DNA of 33,095 nucleotides from Solirubrobacterales bacterium. Its GTDB lineage: Bacteria > Actinomycetota > Thermoleophilia > Solirubrobacterales > Solirubrobacteraceae. Positions 11,677 through 17,139 of this stretch are shown piece by piece; positions within the stretch are counted from its first letter, which is position 1, and each line of letters opens with the position of its first letter. Location: NCBI GenBank assembly GCA_003137075.1, contig PLES01000168.1:1-33095 (forward strand), read 5' to 3'. The translations under genes were made by a program, and so were the position numbers. The notes beneath the pieces were generated by a model that worked only from the letters and a program-made list of their open reading frames with translations, did not search any database and had not been told where the DNA came from.

Positions 11677-12291
11677 TCAGCTATGTTGGCCCGGAATCAA
11701 CGCCACGACACGGGCCACCACCTGATCGAGCGTGAGACCGGTCGTGTCGAGCTGAACAGCGCCCTCGGCCGCCCGCAGCGGCGAGTCCGCGCGAGTGATG
11801 TCACGCTGATCGCGCAGCGTCTGCTCAGCCAGCACCGTCTGGGCACTCACCCCCAGCTCCTCGGCGCGGCGCCGAGCCCGTTCCTGCGGTGACGCGGTCA
11901 GATACACCTTGACCTCGGCGTTGGGCATAACAACCGTTCCAATATCGCGGCCTTCGGCAACCCAATCCCCGCTCGACATCAGACGGCGCTGCTCGGCGAC
12001 CATCGCCACGCGCACGGCGGGGTCGGCGGCGACTTTGGACGCGGCCTCGGAGACCTCCGCGGTGCGGATCGCTTCGGTCACGTCGCTGCCGTCAAGCAGC
12101 ACCCTCTCGCCAAGCGAGATCTGCACTTCGGCGGCGACCAGCGCCGGCTCGGCGTGGCGTTCGATCGACGCCAGTGCCACGCAGCGGTACATCGCGCCGC
12201 TGTCCAAATACGTAAATGAGAGCGCGCCGGCGACCGCACGGGCCACGGTCGACTTGCCGGCTCCGGCCGGTCCGTCGATCGCGACCACCAT
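11677..12291 (-). CDS. cmk: Cytidylate kinase
   Basis: Phosphorylates CMP/dCMP with ATP. The 204-residue protein starts at MVVAIDGPAGAGKST, with the P-loop GPAGAGKST at 7-15, followed by the CMP-binding block YLDSGAMYR and the EGRDIGTVV motif. A longer open frame to 12333 exists, but the ATG at 12291 overlaps the aroA stop as TGATG and places the P-loop at the usual distance from the N-terminus, so I prefer it. It sits between aroA and der, a common gene order. The call is secure. Confidence 0.95.
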   Translation of the reverse strand: MVVAIDGPAGAGKSTVARAVAGALSFTYLDSGAMYRCVALASIERHAEPALVAAEVQISLGERVLLDGSDVTEAIRTAEVSEAASKVAADPAVRVAMVAEQRRLMSSGDWVAEGRDIGTVVMPNAEVKVYLTASPQERARRRAEELGVSAQTVLAEQTLRDQRDITRADSPLRAAEGAVQLDTTGLTLDQVVARVVALIPGQHS

Positions 12292-13574
12292 CACTGCTCG
12301 CCCATGATCACCTGGGCGCCGCTGGCTTCCCACAGCTCGAAGAACTGCGGGCAGGTCTTGCCCACCACGTCGGGGTCCTCAAGCATCACTGCGTCGTGCG
12401 TACCGATCAGTGAGAAGGCCATCGCGATGCGATGGTCCTCGTAGGTCGGCAGCGAGGTGCCCTGCGGCCTGCCGGGATGGATCCGCATCCAGTCAGGCCC
12501 CTGCTCGACCTTGATCCCAAGCCGCTCCAGATTCTCAGCGCAGGCCGCGATCCGGTCCGACTCCTTGACGCGAGCGTGACCGATGCCTTCGATCGTGGTC
12601 GGGCCTTCGGCGAACGGCGCGACGCAGGCGAGCGTCATGAAGACGTCGGAGCTGTTGACCATGTTGACCTGCACCCCGCGCAGCTGCTTGGGCCCGGTCA
12701 GCTCGAGCGCGGGCCCGTCGGTCACGCTGCAGCCCATCTGTTCCAGAAACCCGACCAGCTCGATGTCGCCCTGGGCGGTGACGCGTCGGTCGAGCCCCGG
12801 CAGCCTTACGGTGGTGCCGGTGAGGGCCGCGCTCGCGAGGAAATACGAGGCGGTTGAGACGTCGGGCTCGATCGCGAGGTTGGTGGCCCGGTAGGCGCCG
12901 CGTGAGACCGACAGCGCGCTCGGTGCGACGTCGACGGGGACCCCGAACGCGCGCATCGCGCTCAGCGTGAGCTCGAGATATGGCTTGCTGACGAGCGCGT
13001 CGAAGTGCAGGCGCGTGTCGGCGCGGGCGAAGGGCGCCGCCATCAGCAGGCCCGAGAGGAATTGACTTGAGATCGAACCGTCAACCTCGACGTCTCCGCC
13101 GGCAAGACCACAGGCGCCCAGCACCAGCGGGAAGGCCTCGCCCTCGATTGACGCGCCCTGCGCCCGCAGCGCGGTTAGGACCGGCCCGAGCGGACGCCGG
13201 CGCAGCTGTGCGTGCGAGTCAATCGCGAAGCGGCCGCCGCCGGCGGCGAGCATCGGAACCATGAAACGGCCAACCGTCGCGCCCATGCCGACGTGCACCT
13301 CCTCGTGCCCGTTGGGCGGACCACCGAGGCCCTCGACGATCCATGAGAAGCTGCCGTCGTCCTCGGGGCGCTCGTCGATCGCGACTCCCAAGCCACGCAG
13401 CGCCGAGACCATCGCGTTGGTGTCGTCCGCGACCAGCGGGCTTCTCAGCGTTGACTTGCCGGAGGCGACTCCGGCCAGCAACAGGACACGGTTGGTGATG
13501 CTCTTTGAGCCTGGGACCCGCACCTGCCACTTGGCGGGCGGCGTCCCCGGGGCGATGTGCACGTACTTGCTCAT
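12291..13574 (-). CDS. aroA: EPSP synthase (3-phosphoshikimate 1-carboxyvinyltransferase)
   Basis: Sixth step of the shikimate pathway, joining PEP to shikimate 3-phosphate. The 427-residue protein has the substrate motif PGSKSITNR (21-29), SSQFLSG, RVKESDR and EDHRIAMA near the C-terminus, all class I-like. The PEP-loop, LAGTVLRF or NAGTAMRP in typical enzymes, reads MGATVGRF (97-104) here. Aligned on the invariant Arg103, Ala99 replaces the Gly whose Ala substitution is known to reduce glyphosate binding. The ATG at 13574 overlaps the tyrA stop (ATGA) and the 3' end overlaps cmk, so it is part of a coupled tyrA-aroA-cmk unit. Confidence 0.96.
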   Translation of the reverse strand: MSKYVHIAPGTPPAKWQVRVPGSKSITNRVLLLAGVASGKSTLRSPLVADDTNAMVSALRGLGVAIDERPEDDGSFSWIVEGLGGPPNGHEEVHVGMGATVGRFMVPMLAAGGGRFAIDSHAQLRRRPLGPVLTALRAQGASIEGEAFPLVLGACGLAGGDVEVDGSISSQFLSGLLMAAPFARADTRLHFDALVSKPYLELTLSAMRAFGVPVDVAPSALSVSRGAYRATNLAIEPDVSTASYFLASAALTGTTVRLPGLDRRVTAQGDIELVGFLEQMGCSVTDGPALELTGPKQLRGVQVNMVNSSDVFMTLACVAPFAEGPTTIEGIGHARVKESDRIAACAENLERLGIKVEQGPDWMRIHPGRPQGTSLPTYEDHRIAMAFSLIGTHDAVMLEDPDVVGKTCPQFFELWEASGAQVIMGEQ

Positions 13575-14641
13575 GGCCTGAACACCGGGAAGCCAAGGTC
13601 ACCGATCAGTCGCTCCGCTCGCGACGCATCGTCCTCACCAGAGATCCACAGTGCGACCACCCCCTCAGTCATATCTGCTGCCGGATATAGCGCCAAGTCC
13701 GCGATGTTGACACCTAGACGCCCGAGTTCGAGCGCAAGTTGTGCAACAACCCCCGGCTGGTTGGGCACCGGCACCCGCAGCTCGTGCCATTCGCCGCCCG
13801 CCAGCTGGTGCGCGATCAGCCGGCGATGATCGTCACCTGCAGCCTCGTTCCAAGATGTGAGCGCTGCGGCATCGCCGCTGTCGAGCGTCTCACGGACCGC
13901 TGCCAGGTGCGCGATCGCCTCGTCGATCACCGGTATCAGCGCGTCGCGGTTGCTCATGTAGATGTCGGTCCAGATCCCGCTGTTGGCGCCGGCCACCCGG
14001 GTCGCGTCTCTAAAACTTGGGCCGACCACCGGGAGCCGGTCGGCGTCGCTCGCGGACCCGGTCGCGGCCATCGCCACCAGGACGTTTGCGAACACGTGCG
14101 GCAGATGCGAGACCAGCGCCAGCAAGCGGTCGTGCGTATCGGCGTCAAGCGCGGCCGGGCGCGCCCCGAGGCCGCTGATGATCCGGTGCAGCCGCTCGTA
14201 GAGGATTCCCTCGGTCGTCTGGGTCGGGGTCAGGTACCACGTGGCGCCCTCAAAGAGGTCAGCCCGCGCGTGCTCGATGCCGGCGGTCTCAGCGCCGGCA
14301 AGCGGGTGCCCACCGACGAAGCGCTCGTCGCCGTGGGCGGCGACTATGGCGCGCTTAGTCGAGCCTACGTCACTGACCACACAGTCGGCCGGAGCCGCCG
14401 CCAGGACCTCGCTGATCAGCTCGGGCAGCGAACCGACCGGGGCAGCTACGAAGACCGCATCGGCCGCGGCGACCGCGTCGGCAAGCGAGCCGACGCGGGA
14501 AGCGATTGCTCCACGTGTCAGTGCGATCTCAAGCACATTCGGATCGGGGTCCCAGCCGAGCGTCTGCGCCTGCAGCCGCTCACGCGCGGCCAGCGCTATC
14601 GAGCCGCCGATCAGGCCAAGGCCGATGACCGCTATCCGCAT
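13571..14641 (-). CDS. tyrA: Prephenate dehydrogenase with C-terminal ACT domain
   Basis: NAD(P)-dependent oxidative decarboxylation of prephenate toward tyrosine. The 356-residue protein begins MRIAVIGLGLIGGS with the dinucleotide-binding GLGLIGG at 7-13. It then has SDVGSTK, GGHPLAGAE (catalytic His region) and SHLPHVFANVL. The last ~75 residues (from HELRVPVPNQPGVVAQL) form an ACT domain, a known ligand-binding fold for allosteric feedback, probably by tyrosine. An upstream in-frame ATG at 14719 lies within aroF; the ATG at 14641, 19 nt after the aroF stop, places the Rossmann motif at the N-terminus and is preferred. Arogenate specificity cannot be excluded from sequence reading alone. 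Confidence 0.93.
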   Translation of the reverse strand: MRIAVIGLGLIGGSIALAARERLQAQTLGWDPDPNVLEIALTRGAIASRVGSLADAVAAADAVFVAAPVGSLPELISEVLAAAPADCVVSDVGSTKRAIVAAHGDERFVGGHPLAGAETAGIEHARADLFEGATWYLTPTQTTEGILYERLHRIISGLGARPAALDADTHDRLLALVSHLPHVFANVLVAMAATGSASDADRLPVVGPSFRDATRVAGANSGIWTDIYMSNRDALIPVIDEAIAHLAAVRETLDSGDAAALTSWNEAAGDDHRRLIAHQLAGGEWHELRVPVPNQPGVVAQLALELGRLGVNIADLALYPAADMTEGVVALWISGEDDASRAERLIGDLGFPVFRP

Positions 14642-14660
14642 CCGCAGTGACCGCTCGGGC

Positions 14661-15749
14661 TCAGGCCGTGTGCTCGCGACGGGCCCTGACCGCTGCGGCG
14701 AGTCCGTCGAGGACCTCAACCGTGGTGTCCCAGCCGATGCAGCCGTCGGTGATCGATTGGCCGTAGGTCAGCGTCTCCATCGGCCCTGGCGCCTGGTTGC
14801 CCTCGACGAGGAACGATTCGAGCATCACGCCGGTGATCGCGCGGTTGCCGTCAGCGAGCTGCTGGCCGACCGCGGCGGCGACCTGCGGCTGACGCAGCGG
14901 ATCCTTGGAGCTGTTGCCGTGCGAGAGATCGATCATCAGACGCTCGGGCAGGTTCGAGGCGCGCAACTGCTCAACGGCCGCGGCCACCGACTCGGCATCA
15001 AAGTTGGTGGCGTCCTTGCCGCCACGCAGGATGATGTGGCAGTCACGGTTTCCGCGCGTATGCAGGATCGCGGCGCGGCCGTCGGCGTCGACGCCGGCGA
15101 AGGCGTGACGAGCAGCGGCTGCACGGACCGCGTCGACCGCGACCTGCACGTTGCCGTCGGTGCGGTTCTTGTAGCCGACCGGCATCGACAGGCCTGACCC
15201 GAGCTGGCGGTGGATCTGGCTCTCCGTCGTACGGGCGCCGATCGCGCCCCACGAGACCATGTCCGAGATGTACTGCGGCGTGATCGGGTCGAGAAACTCG
15301 CAGCCGATCGGCAGACCGGCGCCGAGGATCTCGAGCATCAGCTGGCGCGCGATCCGCAGGCCGGCGTTGACGTCGAAGGAACCGTCCAGATGCGGGTCGT
15401 TGATCAGACCCTTCCAACCGATCGTCGTTCGCGGCTTCTCGAAGTAGACCCGCATCGCGATCATCAGGTCCTGCTGGAGTCGCTGGGACTCACCGGCCAG
15501 ACGGCCGGCGTACTCCCTGACGGCGTCGACGTCGTGCACGCTGCAAGGGCCGACCACCACCAGCAGGCGATCGTCGACGCGGTCCAATACCGAGTGCGCC
15601 TGCGCGCGACCCTCAAGCAGGGTCTCGGTCCGCTGCTCGTCGAGCGGCAACTCGTCGAACAGTTCCTGTGGCGTGATCAGCGGTACCAGACGCTCAATCC
15701 GCTGGTCACGGACGGCGTCATGCTGCACTGATCGGGTCACGGTCATCAT
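14661..15749 (-). CDS. DAHP synthase, class I (AroFGH type)
   Basis: First committed shikimate-pathway step: PEP plus erythrose 4-phosphate to DAHP. The 362-residue protein has GPCSVHD (67-73, metal ligand Cys69), the long active-site block MRVYFEKPRTTIGWKG, SWGAIGARTTESQIHR, LRGGKD and the metal-binding DLSHGNSSKD. It belongs to the E. coli AroF/G/H group, not the plant-type class II. Two adjacent ATGs (15749, 15746) are possible starts, with only a weak GAG upstream. It is separated from the aminotransferase gene by a 304-nt leader region holding an aromatic-rich leader peptide, so its expression is probably attenuated by aromatic amino acid supply. Which paralogue (F, G or H) it corresponds to cannot be assigned. 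Confidence 0.95.
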   Translation of the reverse strand: MMTVTRSVQHDAVRDQRIERLVPLITPQELFDELPLDEQRTETLLEGRAQAHSVLDRVDDRLLVVVGPCSVHDVDAVREYAGRLAGESQRLQQDLMIAMRVYFEKPRTTIGWKGLINDPHLDGSFDVNAGLRIARQLMLEILGAGLPIGCEFLDPITPQYISDMVSWGAIGARTTESQIHRQLGSGLSMPVGYKNRTDGNVQVAVDAVRAAAARHAFAGVDADGRAAILHTRGNRDCHIILRGGKDATNFDAESVAAAVEQLRASNLPERLMIDLSHGNSSKDPLRQPQVAAAVGQQLADGNRAITGVMLESFLVEGNQAPGPMETLTYGQSITDGCIGWDTTVEVLDGLAAAVRARREHTA

Positions 15750-15821
15750 CGTCTCGTACGGGGGTCGGGGCTCATCTCGGTGTCCTCTCGCTGCTCAGAC
15801 TGTAGTGGTCTACGGCGCACG

Positions 15822-15863: not shown

Positions 15864-15929
15864 GGCGCTCGACCCCTATTTCGCTGCCCGAGCGCCAAGA
15901 CGGGCAGAAAGGCGTGTTGGCCGAGCGCC
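15864..15929 (-). promoter_or_regulatory. Candidate attenuator with mutually exclusive stems
   Basis: On the minus-strand RNA, GGCGCTCGG occurs twice: at 15929-15921 (beginning in the leader stop codon) and at 15896-15888. One complement, CGAGCGCC, lies at 15871-15864. The second copy can pair with it in an 8-bp stem (15889-15896 with 15864-15871). Alternatively CTGCCCG (15907-15901) pairs with CGGGCAG (15890-15884) in a 7-bp stem that overlaps and traps the second copy. The first copy can also compete for the complement. Such exclusive pairings next to an aromatic leader peptide are what an attenuator needs. The direction of control is unknown. Confidence 0.6.
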
Positions 15930-16000
15930 TAGCTAAATCGCCAGGCGTAGTAGCGCGCGTAGAAGGACCAGCCGAGGGTGTTGGGGCGAAGGTCGTTCAT
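15929..16000 (-). CDS. Aromatic-rich leader peptide of DAHP synthase
   Basis: A 23-codon ORF with an ATG start and TAG stop, starting 53 nt after the aminotransferase stop. Residues 11-22 read WSFYARYYAWRF: two Trp, two Phe and three Tyr in 12 codons, ending directly before competing RNA stems. This is the pattern of classical attenuation leader peptides (as known for trp and phe operons), but it covers all three aromatic amino acids, matching the first enzyme of their common pathway. Ribosome stalling on scarcity of any aromatic aminoacyl-tRNA would change leader folding. The Shine-Dalgarno is weak (GGA about 10 nt upstream). Detection is direct from sequence; the regulatory role is inference. 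Confidence 0.8.
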   Translation of the reverse strand: MNDLRPNTLGWSFYARYYAWRFS

Positions 16001-16015
16001 GCGCGTCTATCCGAA

Positions 16016-16043
16016 AAGCTACCAGTTAGCGCGTTGAGCGCAA
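16016..16043 (-). promoter_or_regulatory. Candidate promoter for the leader and DAHP synthase unit
   Basis: On the minus strand, TTGCGC (16038-16043), a 16-nt spacer and TAGCTT (16016-16021, matching TANNNT) lie just after the aminotransferase stop. Initiation about 7 nt downstream would place the leader ATG roughly 9 nt into the transcript. It is a plausible housekeeping-type promoter, inferred by eye. Confidence 0.45.
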
Positions 16044-16053
16044 GCGCCGCGGT

Positions 16054-17139
16054 TCACGGCAGCAGTTCGGCGAGCGCGTCGAGGAACTGCTGGTTCTCAA
16101 CCGGAGTCCCGAGCGTGACCCGCACGTGGCCCGGTCCGCCGAGCGCCGTACCGCCACGCACGACCACCCCGCGCTCCCGCAGGCCGGTGACGATCGGTAC
16201 GTCGTCACCGTCGTCCGCGACCCGCACCCAGAGGAAGTTCGCGTCGCTCTCCGCCACCCACAGACCGCGGTTACGCAGCGCCTCGGTGACTGCCGTGCGC
16301 GCCGCGACCGTGGCGACGACTCGGCGCTCGACCTCGTCCTGATATTTGAGTGCCTCGACCGCCGCTGACTGCGCGGCTGCCGTCAGGTAGAACGGCTGGC
16401 GCACCTGGTCGACCGCGACGCGGAAGCTGTCACTGCCGCAGAGCCCGTAACCGACCCGCAGCGCGGCGAGGCCGTAGACCTTTGAGAAGGTCCGCAGGAT
16501 CACGAGGTTCGGGTATTTGTCGAGCAGCGGCAACGACGCGTAGGGATCGCCGACGGTCAGCGAGAACTCGACGTAGGCCTCGTCGAGAATCACGCAGACC
16601 TGCGCTGGGACCTTCTCCAGGAAGGCCGTGATCGCCTCGAGCGGCAATGCCGTGCTGGTGGGGTTGTTGGGGTTGCAGATCAGCACCAGTCGCGTGGCGA
16701 CGGTGATCTCGGCGGCGATCGCGTCAAGGTCGTGCTCCGCATCGCCGTTCAGCGGCACCTCGATCGCGCGCGCGCCGGAGGCCGCTGCCAGGTGCGGGTA
16801 GACGCTGAACGCCGGCCAGCCGTAGATGACCTCCGCGCCGGGCTCGAGCAGCGCGTCACCGGCACTGAGGATCAGGTCACACGAGCCGGCGCCCAGCGCG
16901 ATCCGCTCGACCGGAATCCGGTAACGGTCGCAGAGCGCCTGCCGCAGCGGCATGTAGGCCGGGTCCGGGTACCGATTGGAGCCGAGCAGCGCGTGCTTGG
17001 CCGCCTCGACCACCGGCTCAAGCGGCGTGAACGGCGTCTCATTCGAGGCCAGCATCGCCACGTCCGCCCCAAGGTCGTAGCCGGCCGCCACCGGGTAAAC
17101 GGGGATCCGCTTGGTCTTCTGCGCGAACTCAAGGCTCAT
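16054..17139 (-). CDS. HisC-like / aromatic amino acid aminotransferase
   Basis: PLP-dependent fold-type I aminotransferase of the histidinol-phosphate aminotransferase family, 361 residues. Motifs are the N-terminal ASNETPF block (31-37), CNPNNP (155-160), DEAY (186-189) and the PLP-lysine motif TFSKVYGLAALRVGYG with Lys220. Members of this family act on histidinol phosphate or on phenylpyruvate and 4-hydroxyphenylpyruvate. The neighbours are chorismate mutase (12 nt upstream) and DAHP synthase/prephenate dehydrogenase, with no other his genes, so transamination of aromatic keto acids is the more likely main role. That specificity is inference from context. The gene is annotated without a symbol because hisC and pat/aroAT cannot be separated by reading. 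Confidence 0.9.
   Translation of the reverse strand: MSLEFAQKTKRIPVYPVAAGYDLGADVAMLASNETPFTPLEPVVEAAKHALLGSNRYPDPAYMPLRQALCDRYRIPVERIALGAGSCDLILSAGDALLEPGAEVIYGWPAFSVYPHLAAASGARAIEVPLNGDAEHDLDAIAAEITVATRLVLICNPNNPTSTALPLEAITAFLEKVPAQVCVILDEAYVEFSLTVGDPYASLPLLDKYPNLVILRTFSKVYGLAALRVGYGLCGSDSFRVAVDQVRQPFYLTAAAQSAAVEALKYQDEVERRVVATVAARTAVTEALRNRGLWVAESDANFLWVRVADDGDDVPIVTGLRERGVVVRGGTALGGPGHVRVTLGTPVENQQFLDALAELLP

Follow-up and report, generated by a model that had tools for sequence, protein, structure and literature searches.

The AroR leader of C. glutamicum aroF places Phe-Tyr-Phe before 3-deoxy-D-arabinoheptulosonate 7-phosphate (DAHP) synthase and, according to excerpts of PMC11802643, answers to Phe and not to Tyr. 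It also appears as a prediction in excerpts of PMC4046766. The trpL, pheL and pheST attenuators of enterobacteria are named in the same excerpts of PMC11802643. Excerpts of PMC1262725 (Seliverstov et al. 2005) describe the LEU element of actinobacterial leuA, a leader peptide with a conserved RNA structure but without an obvious terminator, whose mechanism is unsolved. The same excerpts name tnaC for a Rho-dependent terminator and report no conserved RNA structure before Phe/Tyr operons in ~20 genomes, Rubrobacter included and Solirubrobacterales not. The locus considered here lies on a 33,095-nucleotide (nt) stretch of DNA from a Solirubrobacterales bacterium (contig PLES01000168.1, assembly GCA_003137075.1), referred to in its entirety as the window, in which a short open reading frame (ORF) rich in Trp (W), Tyr (Y) and Phe (F) codons precedes DAHP synthase. 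This leader is likely to be a translation-coupled attenuator through which the aro operon senses how well the cell is provided with Trp, Tyr and Phe, with the position of the ribosome deciding whether a hairpin, P2, folds.

As a rule, a leader peptide contains codons for a single end product, and the sequence of its RNA is free to drift. Here one leader stands at the entrance to the shared pathway with codons for each of the three aromatic end products. The end of this leader is frozen down to the single nucleotide, at synonymous positions too, and has stayed so while the enzyme under its control was replaced.

The aromatic leader and its conservation

The leader ORF comprises 23 codons, and residues 11-22 of its product read WSFYARYYAWRF. 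The features of the locus are as follows.

15929..16000, minus strand: leader ORF MNDLRPNTLGWSFYARYYAWRFS with its stop, read from the sequence and backed by conservation in relatives
16016..16043, minus strand: promoter-like site, TTGCGC (16043-16038), N16 and extended -10 element TGGTAGCTT (16024-16016)
15928..15940, minus strand: core CGATTTAGCTAGG, the codons Arg-Phe-Ser-stop plus one base
15919..15929, minus strand: 5' arm of P2, GGCGCTCGGCC, from the last base of the UAG stop codon
15864..15874, minus strand: 3' arm of P2, GGTCGAGCGCC
15884..15907, minus strand: hairpin CTGCCCG/CGGGCAG within the P2 loop, overlapping the second GGCGCTCGG (15888-15896)

An earlier note on this DNA had described the ORF, two GGCGCTCGG repeats (15921-15929 and 15888-15896) with one partner CGAGCGCC (15864-15871), a stem of CTGCCCG (15901-15907) and CGGGCAG (15884-15890), and a promoter-like TTGCGC-N16-TAGCTT, and all are present in the window. 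The first repeat opens with the G of the stop codon (15929). TTGCGC (16038-16043) and TAGCTT (16016-16021) are spaced 16 nt apart, and 15 nt separate the promoter-like site from the leader ATG. No U-tract was seen in the window's leader, in agreement with that note, which missed the frozen core CGAUUUANCUAGG. The fold of the whole 291-nt leader is not unusually stable (z -0.76; 43 of 200 shuffles equal it), hence fold energy alone would have missed the element.

The window's ORF is one of a family of 138 loci, made up of 60 found through a type I-alpha DAHP synthase protein and 78 chosen by motif (L109-L126, L138-L197). For the latter, invariance of the core is partly built in, as CGATTT, AGGC and the preceding [CT] were fixed by the search expression. 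Protein searches found I-alpha DAHP synthase in 76 of 232 genomes of the order, and all 76 loci, the window included, were read. CGATTT[AC]NN[CT]AGGC lies upstream in 60 of them. Type I-beta loci of the order, also found by protein and therefore independent of motif choice, carry the core in 17 of 23 cases (14 CGATTTA, 3 CGATTTC). The earlier note had named loss of the ORF or its aromatic codons from homologous upstream regions as grounds for abandoning the idea; within the order they are kept in these same 60 of 76 and 17 of 23 loci. Going by this conservation, a chance origin of the leader is excluded.

Aromatic residues crowd towards the core. Counting codons back from it, they occupy position -1 in 96% of the 138 loci, -2 in 37%, -3 in 51%, -4 in 59% and -5 in 34%, falling to 12-24% at -6 to -10 and to at most 8% from -11 on. 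Between codons -1 to -10 and -12 to -21 the frequencies are 15.0% vs. 0.1% for Trp, 17.2% vs. 1.2% for Tyr and 5.6% vs. 2.2% for Phe, while nearly all other residues are flat or depleted in -1 to -10. All three occur together in 136 loci if the core Phe is counted, and 64 have a Phe upstream of the core. The short ORF is thus enriched in codons for the end products of the pathway, which is the codon hallmark of ribosome-mediated leader-peptide control, and the mixed leader before the first common enzyme postulated in the earlier note holds across the family. TAT supplies 115 of 237 leader Tyr codons, compared with 3.1% in 98 DAHP synthase genes; such use of a rare codon is what selection for slow decoding would produce. 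Third codon positions upstream are C/G-biased in frame with CGA-TTT-ANC-TAG, and the ORF spans some 16-37 codons ahead of the core.

The promoter-like element of the earlier note recurs in half of the family. In 69 of 138 loci an extended -10 element, often TGNTACAAA, stands ahead of a leader start in the right frame, at a distance of 0-17 nt in 68 of them and of 50 nt in L040. The window is excluded from this count since its own TGGTAGCTT falls outside the pattern scanned. Shuffled upstream DNA gave a mean of 0.9 and a maximum of 2. As the element mostly stands 0-17 nt from the in-frame start, the leader transcript is probably nearly leaderless.

The frozen core and hairpin P2

Conservation at the end of the leader extends beyond its codons. 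The upstream regions of the 76 protein-found loci were scanned for a Trp codon followed by Arg and Phe in whatever synonymous form, with a stop of any type after no more than three further codons. Such a W-R-F end is present in 48 loci, and its codons are CGA, TTT and TAG in all 48 although any synonym was allowed. In the 98 DAHP synthase genes CGA accounts for 5.5% of the codons used for Arg and TTT for 3.0% of those used for Phe, while 26.5% of the genes' stops are TAG. Positions left free by the search are similarly constrained in the 138 loci: the base before the core is G in 136, TGG precedes the core in 130, position 6 holds A in 129 and C in the other 9, a C stands at position 8 in 130, and 136 keep the UAG stop. 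The residue after Arg-Phe varies, with Ser, Thr, Ile, Arg and Val all found. Judged from these counts, the leader's end is conserved as RNA. Column counts in the 138 loci found nothing invariant within 60 nt downstream beyond the 5' arm of P2. At the centre of one locus (L356, genome G026) the variant TGGCGATTCGTCTAGGCG retains the peptide end WRFV-stop with an altered RNA core.

Resemblance to other RNA elements was also considered. The rRNA boxA, the NusB/S10 antitermination site, reads GGTCTTTGAAAACTC before 16S in the four genomes of the order that were read, and in all four it differs from the core. Pairing between the core and rRNA did not exceed shuffles (best 9-10 bp vs. 12-14; 16S plus 1.5 kb on each side, six genomes). 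Rfam 15 returned four matches for 601 bases of the window at E up to 10, all far under the gathering score, and none at gathering score for the loci of five relatives.

P2 consists of GGCGYYCGGC, from the last base of the UAG, paired with GCCGRRCGCC mostly 45-80 nt further on. A partner for its first seven bases exists in 127 of 138 loci, whereas shuffling predicts 20. All eight core pairs form in 114 loci, of which 86 have loops of 28-46 nt and 59 remain after removal of near-duplicates; covariation was tested in 58 after dropping L034 and L039, whose partner was misassigned, and adding the window. In this set 93.4% of cells are paired, a percentage inflated by the choice of loci that form the core pairs, and the covariation score is 0.235 compared with at most 0.099 for slid partners. 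Both sides changed with pairing kept in 40 cells vs. 11.2 in shuffles. P2 is thus a covarying hairpin beginning at the leader stop codon. It starts 2 nt past the first base of that codon and 8 nt past the first base of UUU. The earlier claim about repeats stands in part: the stem of the first GGCGCTCGG with CGAGCGCC is conserved, but competition between two repeats finds no support as a feature of the family.

The core accompanies both types of enzyme. Behind the leader stands either an I-alpha or a type I-beta DAHP synthase, the latter typed as TIGR01361 (NCBIfam) on two examples; the I-beta enzyme is full length or a 275-amino-acid core, and some loci hold both types in tandem. Because both types stand behind it, the leader must have outlived replacement of the enzyme it precedes. 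In family loci tyrA and aroA mostly follow next. The window has the order I-alpha DAHP synthase, tyrA, aroA, cmk and der 3' of the leader. On the 5' side lies a HisC-like aminotransferase gene (16054-17139, minus strand), itself preceded by an AroH-type chorismate mutase.

15746..15775, minus strand: mini-ORF MSPDPRTRR, its stop overlapping the DAHP synthase start ATGATG; close relatives only
14661..15749, minus strand: type I-alpha DAHP synthase, first gene after the leader (TIGR00034, E 1.4e-149)
13571..14719, minus strand: prephenate dehydrogenase (tyrA), its best family score below that family's own cut-off
12291..13574, minus strand: 3-phosphoshikimate 1-carboxyvinyltransferase (aroA; TIGR01356)

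The mini-ORF (15775-15746) has counterparts at the same place in L032-L038 (MNRNPRRVR and similar), just after a site of the GAGAGG or GAGGAT type. In 8 of 11 loci examined the mini-ORF ends in a stop that overlaps the start of DAHP synthase, and translational coupling to the enzyme is possible. In another order of the class, three loci of one family (L468, L473 and L475, family f9) share a different stretch, TTGGGGCTTNNCTATG, upstream of I-beta DAHP synthase; loci bearing it have no Rfam match at gathering score.

The aro form is largely confined to one order, among soil bacteria related to Solirubrobacter. A 23-nt pattern with up to two mismatches matches 140 of 399 genomes of the class, one of them (G447) outside the order, compared with one match for the reversed-pattern control. 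The 13-mer CGATTTANCTAGG occurs in 91 of 146 genomes of the family, exactly once in each, with one control match. A regulon of further core copies was rejected, as the window's own genome has none at up to three mismatches of the long pattern and genomes of the family that have the 13-mer have it a single time. A 20-nt pattern matched 108 stretches of GTDB contigs, 80 of them listed. The titles among these 80 are Solirubrobacterales, Solirubrobacteraceae, Thermoleophilaceae, Thermoleophilia, Conexibacter, Solirubrobacter, Svornostia or unassigned actinobacterial, the exceptions being 'Bacterium HR41', 'bacterium isolate RSA11' and one 'Bifidobacterium breve' metagenome-assembled genome. Among I-beta DAHP synthase loci read in the other orders of this class, 0 of 27 showed the core within 300 nt of the approximate gene start. 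The sole class member outside the order with an exact core (L197/L243, G447) continues with a DAHP synthase resembling type I-beta and tyrA. Some genera of the family are short of the core, which is present in 3 of the 17 g11 genomes and in none of the 4 in g13 or the 4 in g25; many g11 and g25 genomes rank among the order's smallest.

A second form precedes pheA in another class. In family f23, which belongs to an order of that class, CGATTTANCTAGGNG occurs in 9 of 39 genomes with no control match. Eight of the nine precede chorismate mutase/prephenate dehydratase (pheA), two of which were typed, and the ninth (L229), before an unrelated gene, is taken as chance. Independently of the motif, pheA was found by protein in 37 of the 39 genomes, and CGATTTA lies 71-182 nt upstream in all 33 of these loci that were read. 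A helix scoring at least 8 follows directly in 29 of the 33 vs. 0.8 expected by shuffling, the other four being L372, L376, L427 and L429. Its sequence is unlike the aro P2 and in most loci pairs GGAGGGGCG with CGCCCCTCC, or variants of these. The UAG is often lost, so that the ORF enters or crosses the hairpin, and apart from the core UUU aromatic codons are scarce or missing in these leaders. In other families, 0 of 16 prephenate dehydratase loci carry the core within 300 nt of the approximate gene start.

One-mismatch matches to CGATTTANCTAGGCG occur in 54 of 396 genomes of the phylum, and since the reversed-pattern control was comparable by eye these are mostly chance. A covariance model, R1, scanned over the same 396 genomes at E up to 0.05, matched 16: 12 of the order plus G257, G502, G522 and G760. 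No CGATTTA occurs in the stretches shown for these last four. The match in G760 lies away from that genome's pheA leader, hence R1 missed the pheA form. A first alignment, A1, misaligned the pheA sequences and was left unused.

Ribosome position and competing explanations

Sequence comparison shows the ORF, its frame, the aromatic enrichment, the promoter-like site, the frozen core, the covariation of P2 and the operon context. From these we infer stalling, the direction of control, the part of Rho and the role of the core. A dedicated promoter would yield a nearly leaderless transcript opening with the leader ORF. Upon shortage of charged Trp-, Tyr- or Phe-tRNA, a ribosome would stall among the W/Y/F codons that crowd immediately ahead of the core, whereas one with enough aromatic tRNA would proceed to the UAG. 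A ribosome footprint reaches 12-15 nt, and by this count a ribosome stalled with its A site at codon -1 or earlier would end about where P2 begins, leaving the 5' arm free so that P2 can fold. A ribosome at the UAG would cover the entire 5' arm. Folded P2 would therefore be the starvation, operon-on state and blocked P2 the off state. That the position of the ribosome is the signal is suggested by the rise in W/Y/F up to CGA, the rare TAT and the hairpin starting at the stop codon. The sequence CGAUUUANCUA would act as a recognition or ribosome-context element and not merely as codons.

The off step would most likely be Rho-dependent termination in the leader, with the RNA protected by folded P2. 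Rho is assigned because a terminator, a competing helix and Shine-Dalgarno sequestration are not conserved, so this output step is reached by elimination, which counts against the proposed attenuator. Several results weigh in the same direction. The core was not found in 16 of the 76 I-alpha and 6 of the 23 I-beta loci. The I-alpha misses include L089 with 198 nt of upstream sequence and L101 and L103 with none, and several of the 16 genomes have the motif elsewhere (e.g. G081, G084, G085, G087 and G156); the I-beta misses are L456, L460 and L463-L466, L464 having an isolated CGATTTA without the remainder. Two loci have lost the UAG, with CAG instead. In the 58 covariation loci further pair types were no better than shuffles (13 vs. 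12.2). A scan of 114 loci for a conserved competitor of the P2 3' arm over the 60 nt that follow it found none (mean z -0.14), while P2 itself as positive control reached z 4.51. The 60 nt after P2 lack a terminator-like fold (z 0.12), and TTTT follows P2 in only 14 of 138 loci. Blocking P2 gives no consistent change in Shine-Dalgarno accessibility in 98 loci, and sequestration by P2 was rejected accordingly (mean gain 0.035; above 0.1 in 22 of 98 loci and below -0.1 in 12). The pheA form argues for the opposite sign of P2, because its only regular aromatic codon is the UUU within the core, and a ribosome stalled there would cover part of P2. Lastly, a -10-like TANNNT hexamer stands just 5' of the gene in 47 of 73 I-beta loci vs. 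10.4 in shuffles, which may be a second promoter bypassing the leader. It lies 22-41 nt upstream of the I-beta start, mostly 30-40, and its counterpart in the window is TACAGT at 15804-15799.

Two further candidates were tried and rejected. A helix P1 between pre-core codons and the pre-gene region, checked for the last two leader codons (-2 and -1), occurs in some loci (GCCTGG with CCAGGC) but is not general, on a count made without a shuffled control. Frameshifting or readthrough into the enzyme does not fit, as the distance to the gene is not constant modulo 3 and the -1 frame runs straight into a stop in half of the loci or more, with a median of 0 codons.

The strongest rival holds that the core and P2 form a riboswitch-like binding site for a protein or small molecule, with the ORF a secondary input or mere overlap. 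It overlaps the attenuator proposal and the two are not mutually exclusive. Such a site would account for the unvarying codons of the 48 synonym-tolerant matches and for CGATTTA in every pheA locus read despite frequent stop loss and a different P2 sequence. No cis partner explains the core either, given the lack of invariant positions downstream beyond the P2 5' arm and of a general P1. However, the order-wide aromatic enrichment and frame signal indicate translation, and one site per genome is unusual for a general regulator. In one genome the variant CGATTCGTC holds the WRFV-stop peptide end while the RNA differs. This explanation is regarded as rather unlikely.

Less probable again is a TnaC-like switch in which pausing or arrest at CGA-UUU and the next codon, caused by the codons, the nascent Arg-Phe end and the hairpin ahead, is itself the signal and leaves P2 blocked in the on state. 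P2 does begin where it would meet a ribosome paused there, both CGA and UUU are rare, and UUU is often the sole aromatic codon near the end in the pheA form. Nevertheless, selection on a peptide would not require that CGA and UUU be fixed together with no more than the first base of the codon after them, whose residue varies among five amino acids, and the W and Y enrichment extends ten codons upstream.

The classical antiterminator/terminator attenuator, in which two repeats compete for one partner, is improbable. The window has both repeats, the partner and the CTGCCCG/CGGGCAG stem, as the earlier note saw. Across 114 loci, however, the second repeat is exact only in the window (1/114). A copy within one mismatch occurs in 9 loci, compared with 2.6 after shuffling, and 8 of the 9 belong to the genus of the window. 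Mutually exclusive helices and a U-tract terminator define trp/phe-type attenuators; the scans above found neither competing helix nor terminator fold, and T-runs are few. Least credible of all is a DNA operator inside the leader, which would suit a 13-mer present exactly once in each of 91 family genomes but sits poorly with the fixed reading frame, the covarying RNA arms adjoining, the lack of a palindrome by eye and a core retained beside two unrelated hairpin sequences.

Attenuation by ribosome position thus remains the preferred account of the aro form. A broader proposal is advanced more tentatively, although it is quite possible: CGAUUUA with a GC-rich hairpin within a few bases may constitute a new cis-regulatory RNA class for aromatic biosynthesis, found in two Actinomycetota classes and before two operons (aro and pheA). 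It would combine the position of a ribosome on a leader ORF with sequence-specific reading of the heptamer by a protein, a ligand or the ribosome, the aro form reading Trp, Tyr and Phe together. If the reader of the heptamer is not a tRNA, attenuators can have a second, sequence-specific input. The compact consensus and its occurrence in cultured bacteria (Solirubrobacter, Conexibacter) make these ideas directly testable.

Comparison with known leader systems

Searches of the open-licence PMC literature, bioRxiv not included, brought up AroR and the LEU element but no published description of the core, which does not prove that none exists. The family looks like one not recognised before, and as an RNA family it has a fair chance of being a new RNA class. 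By its codons it is a member of leader-peptide control, but it does not qualify as a classical attenuator, as neither of two defining features was found conserved.

The E. coli tnaC leader offers a parallel for the output step, as RNA that Rho would use could be shielded by a ribosome standing on the leader stop or close to it, although nothing in the present loci points to a free amino acid causing arrest. In trpL, pheL and pheST a short ORF carries end-product codons and an RNA stem lies within the ribosome footprint, as in this locus. They differ in that the present family has no conserved terminator or competing helix and a core conserved beyond its codons. The LEU element is similar in being an actinobacterial leader peptide with a conserved RNA structure and no obvious terminator, whereas here the unpaired bases are the most conserved. 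AroR, from the same phylum, likewise places an aromatic-codon leader peptide before DAHP synthase and is a precedent for the attenuator proposed here. Going by the description of AroR, the Solirubrobacterales leader is set apart by its combination of Trp, Tyr and Phe, with Trp the most regular, and by its frozen core and adjoining hairpin.
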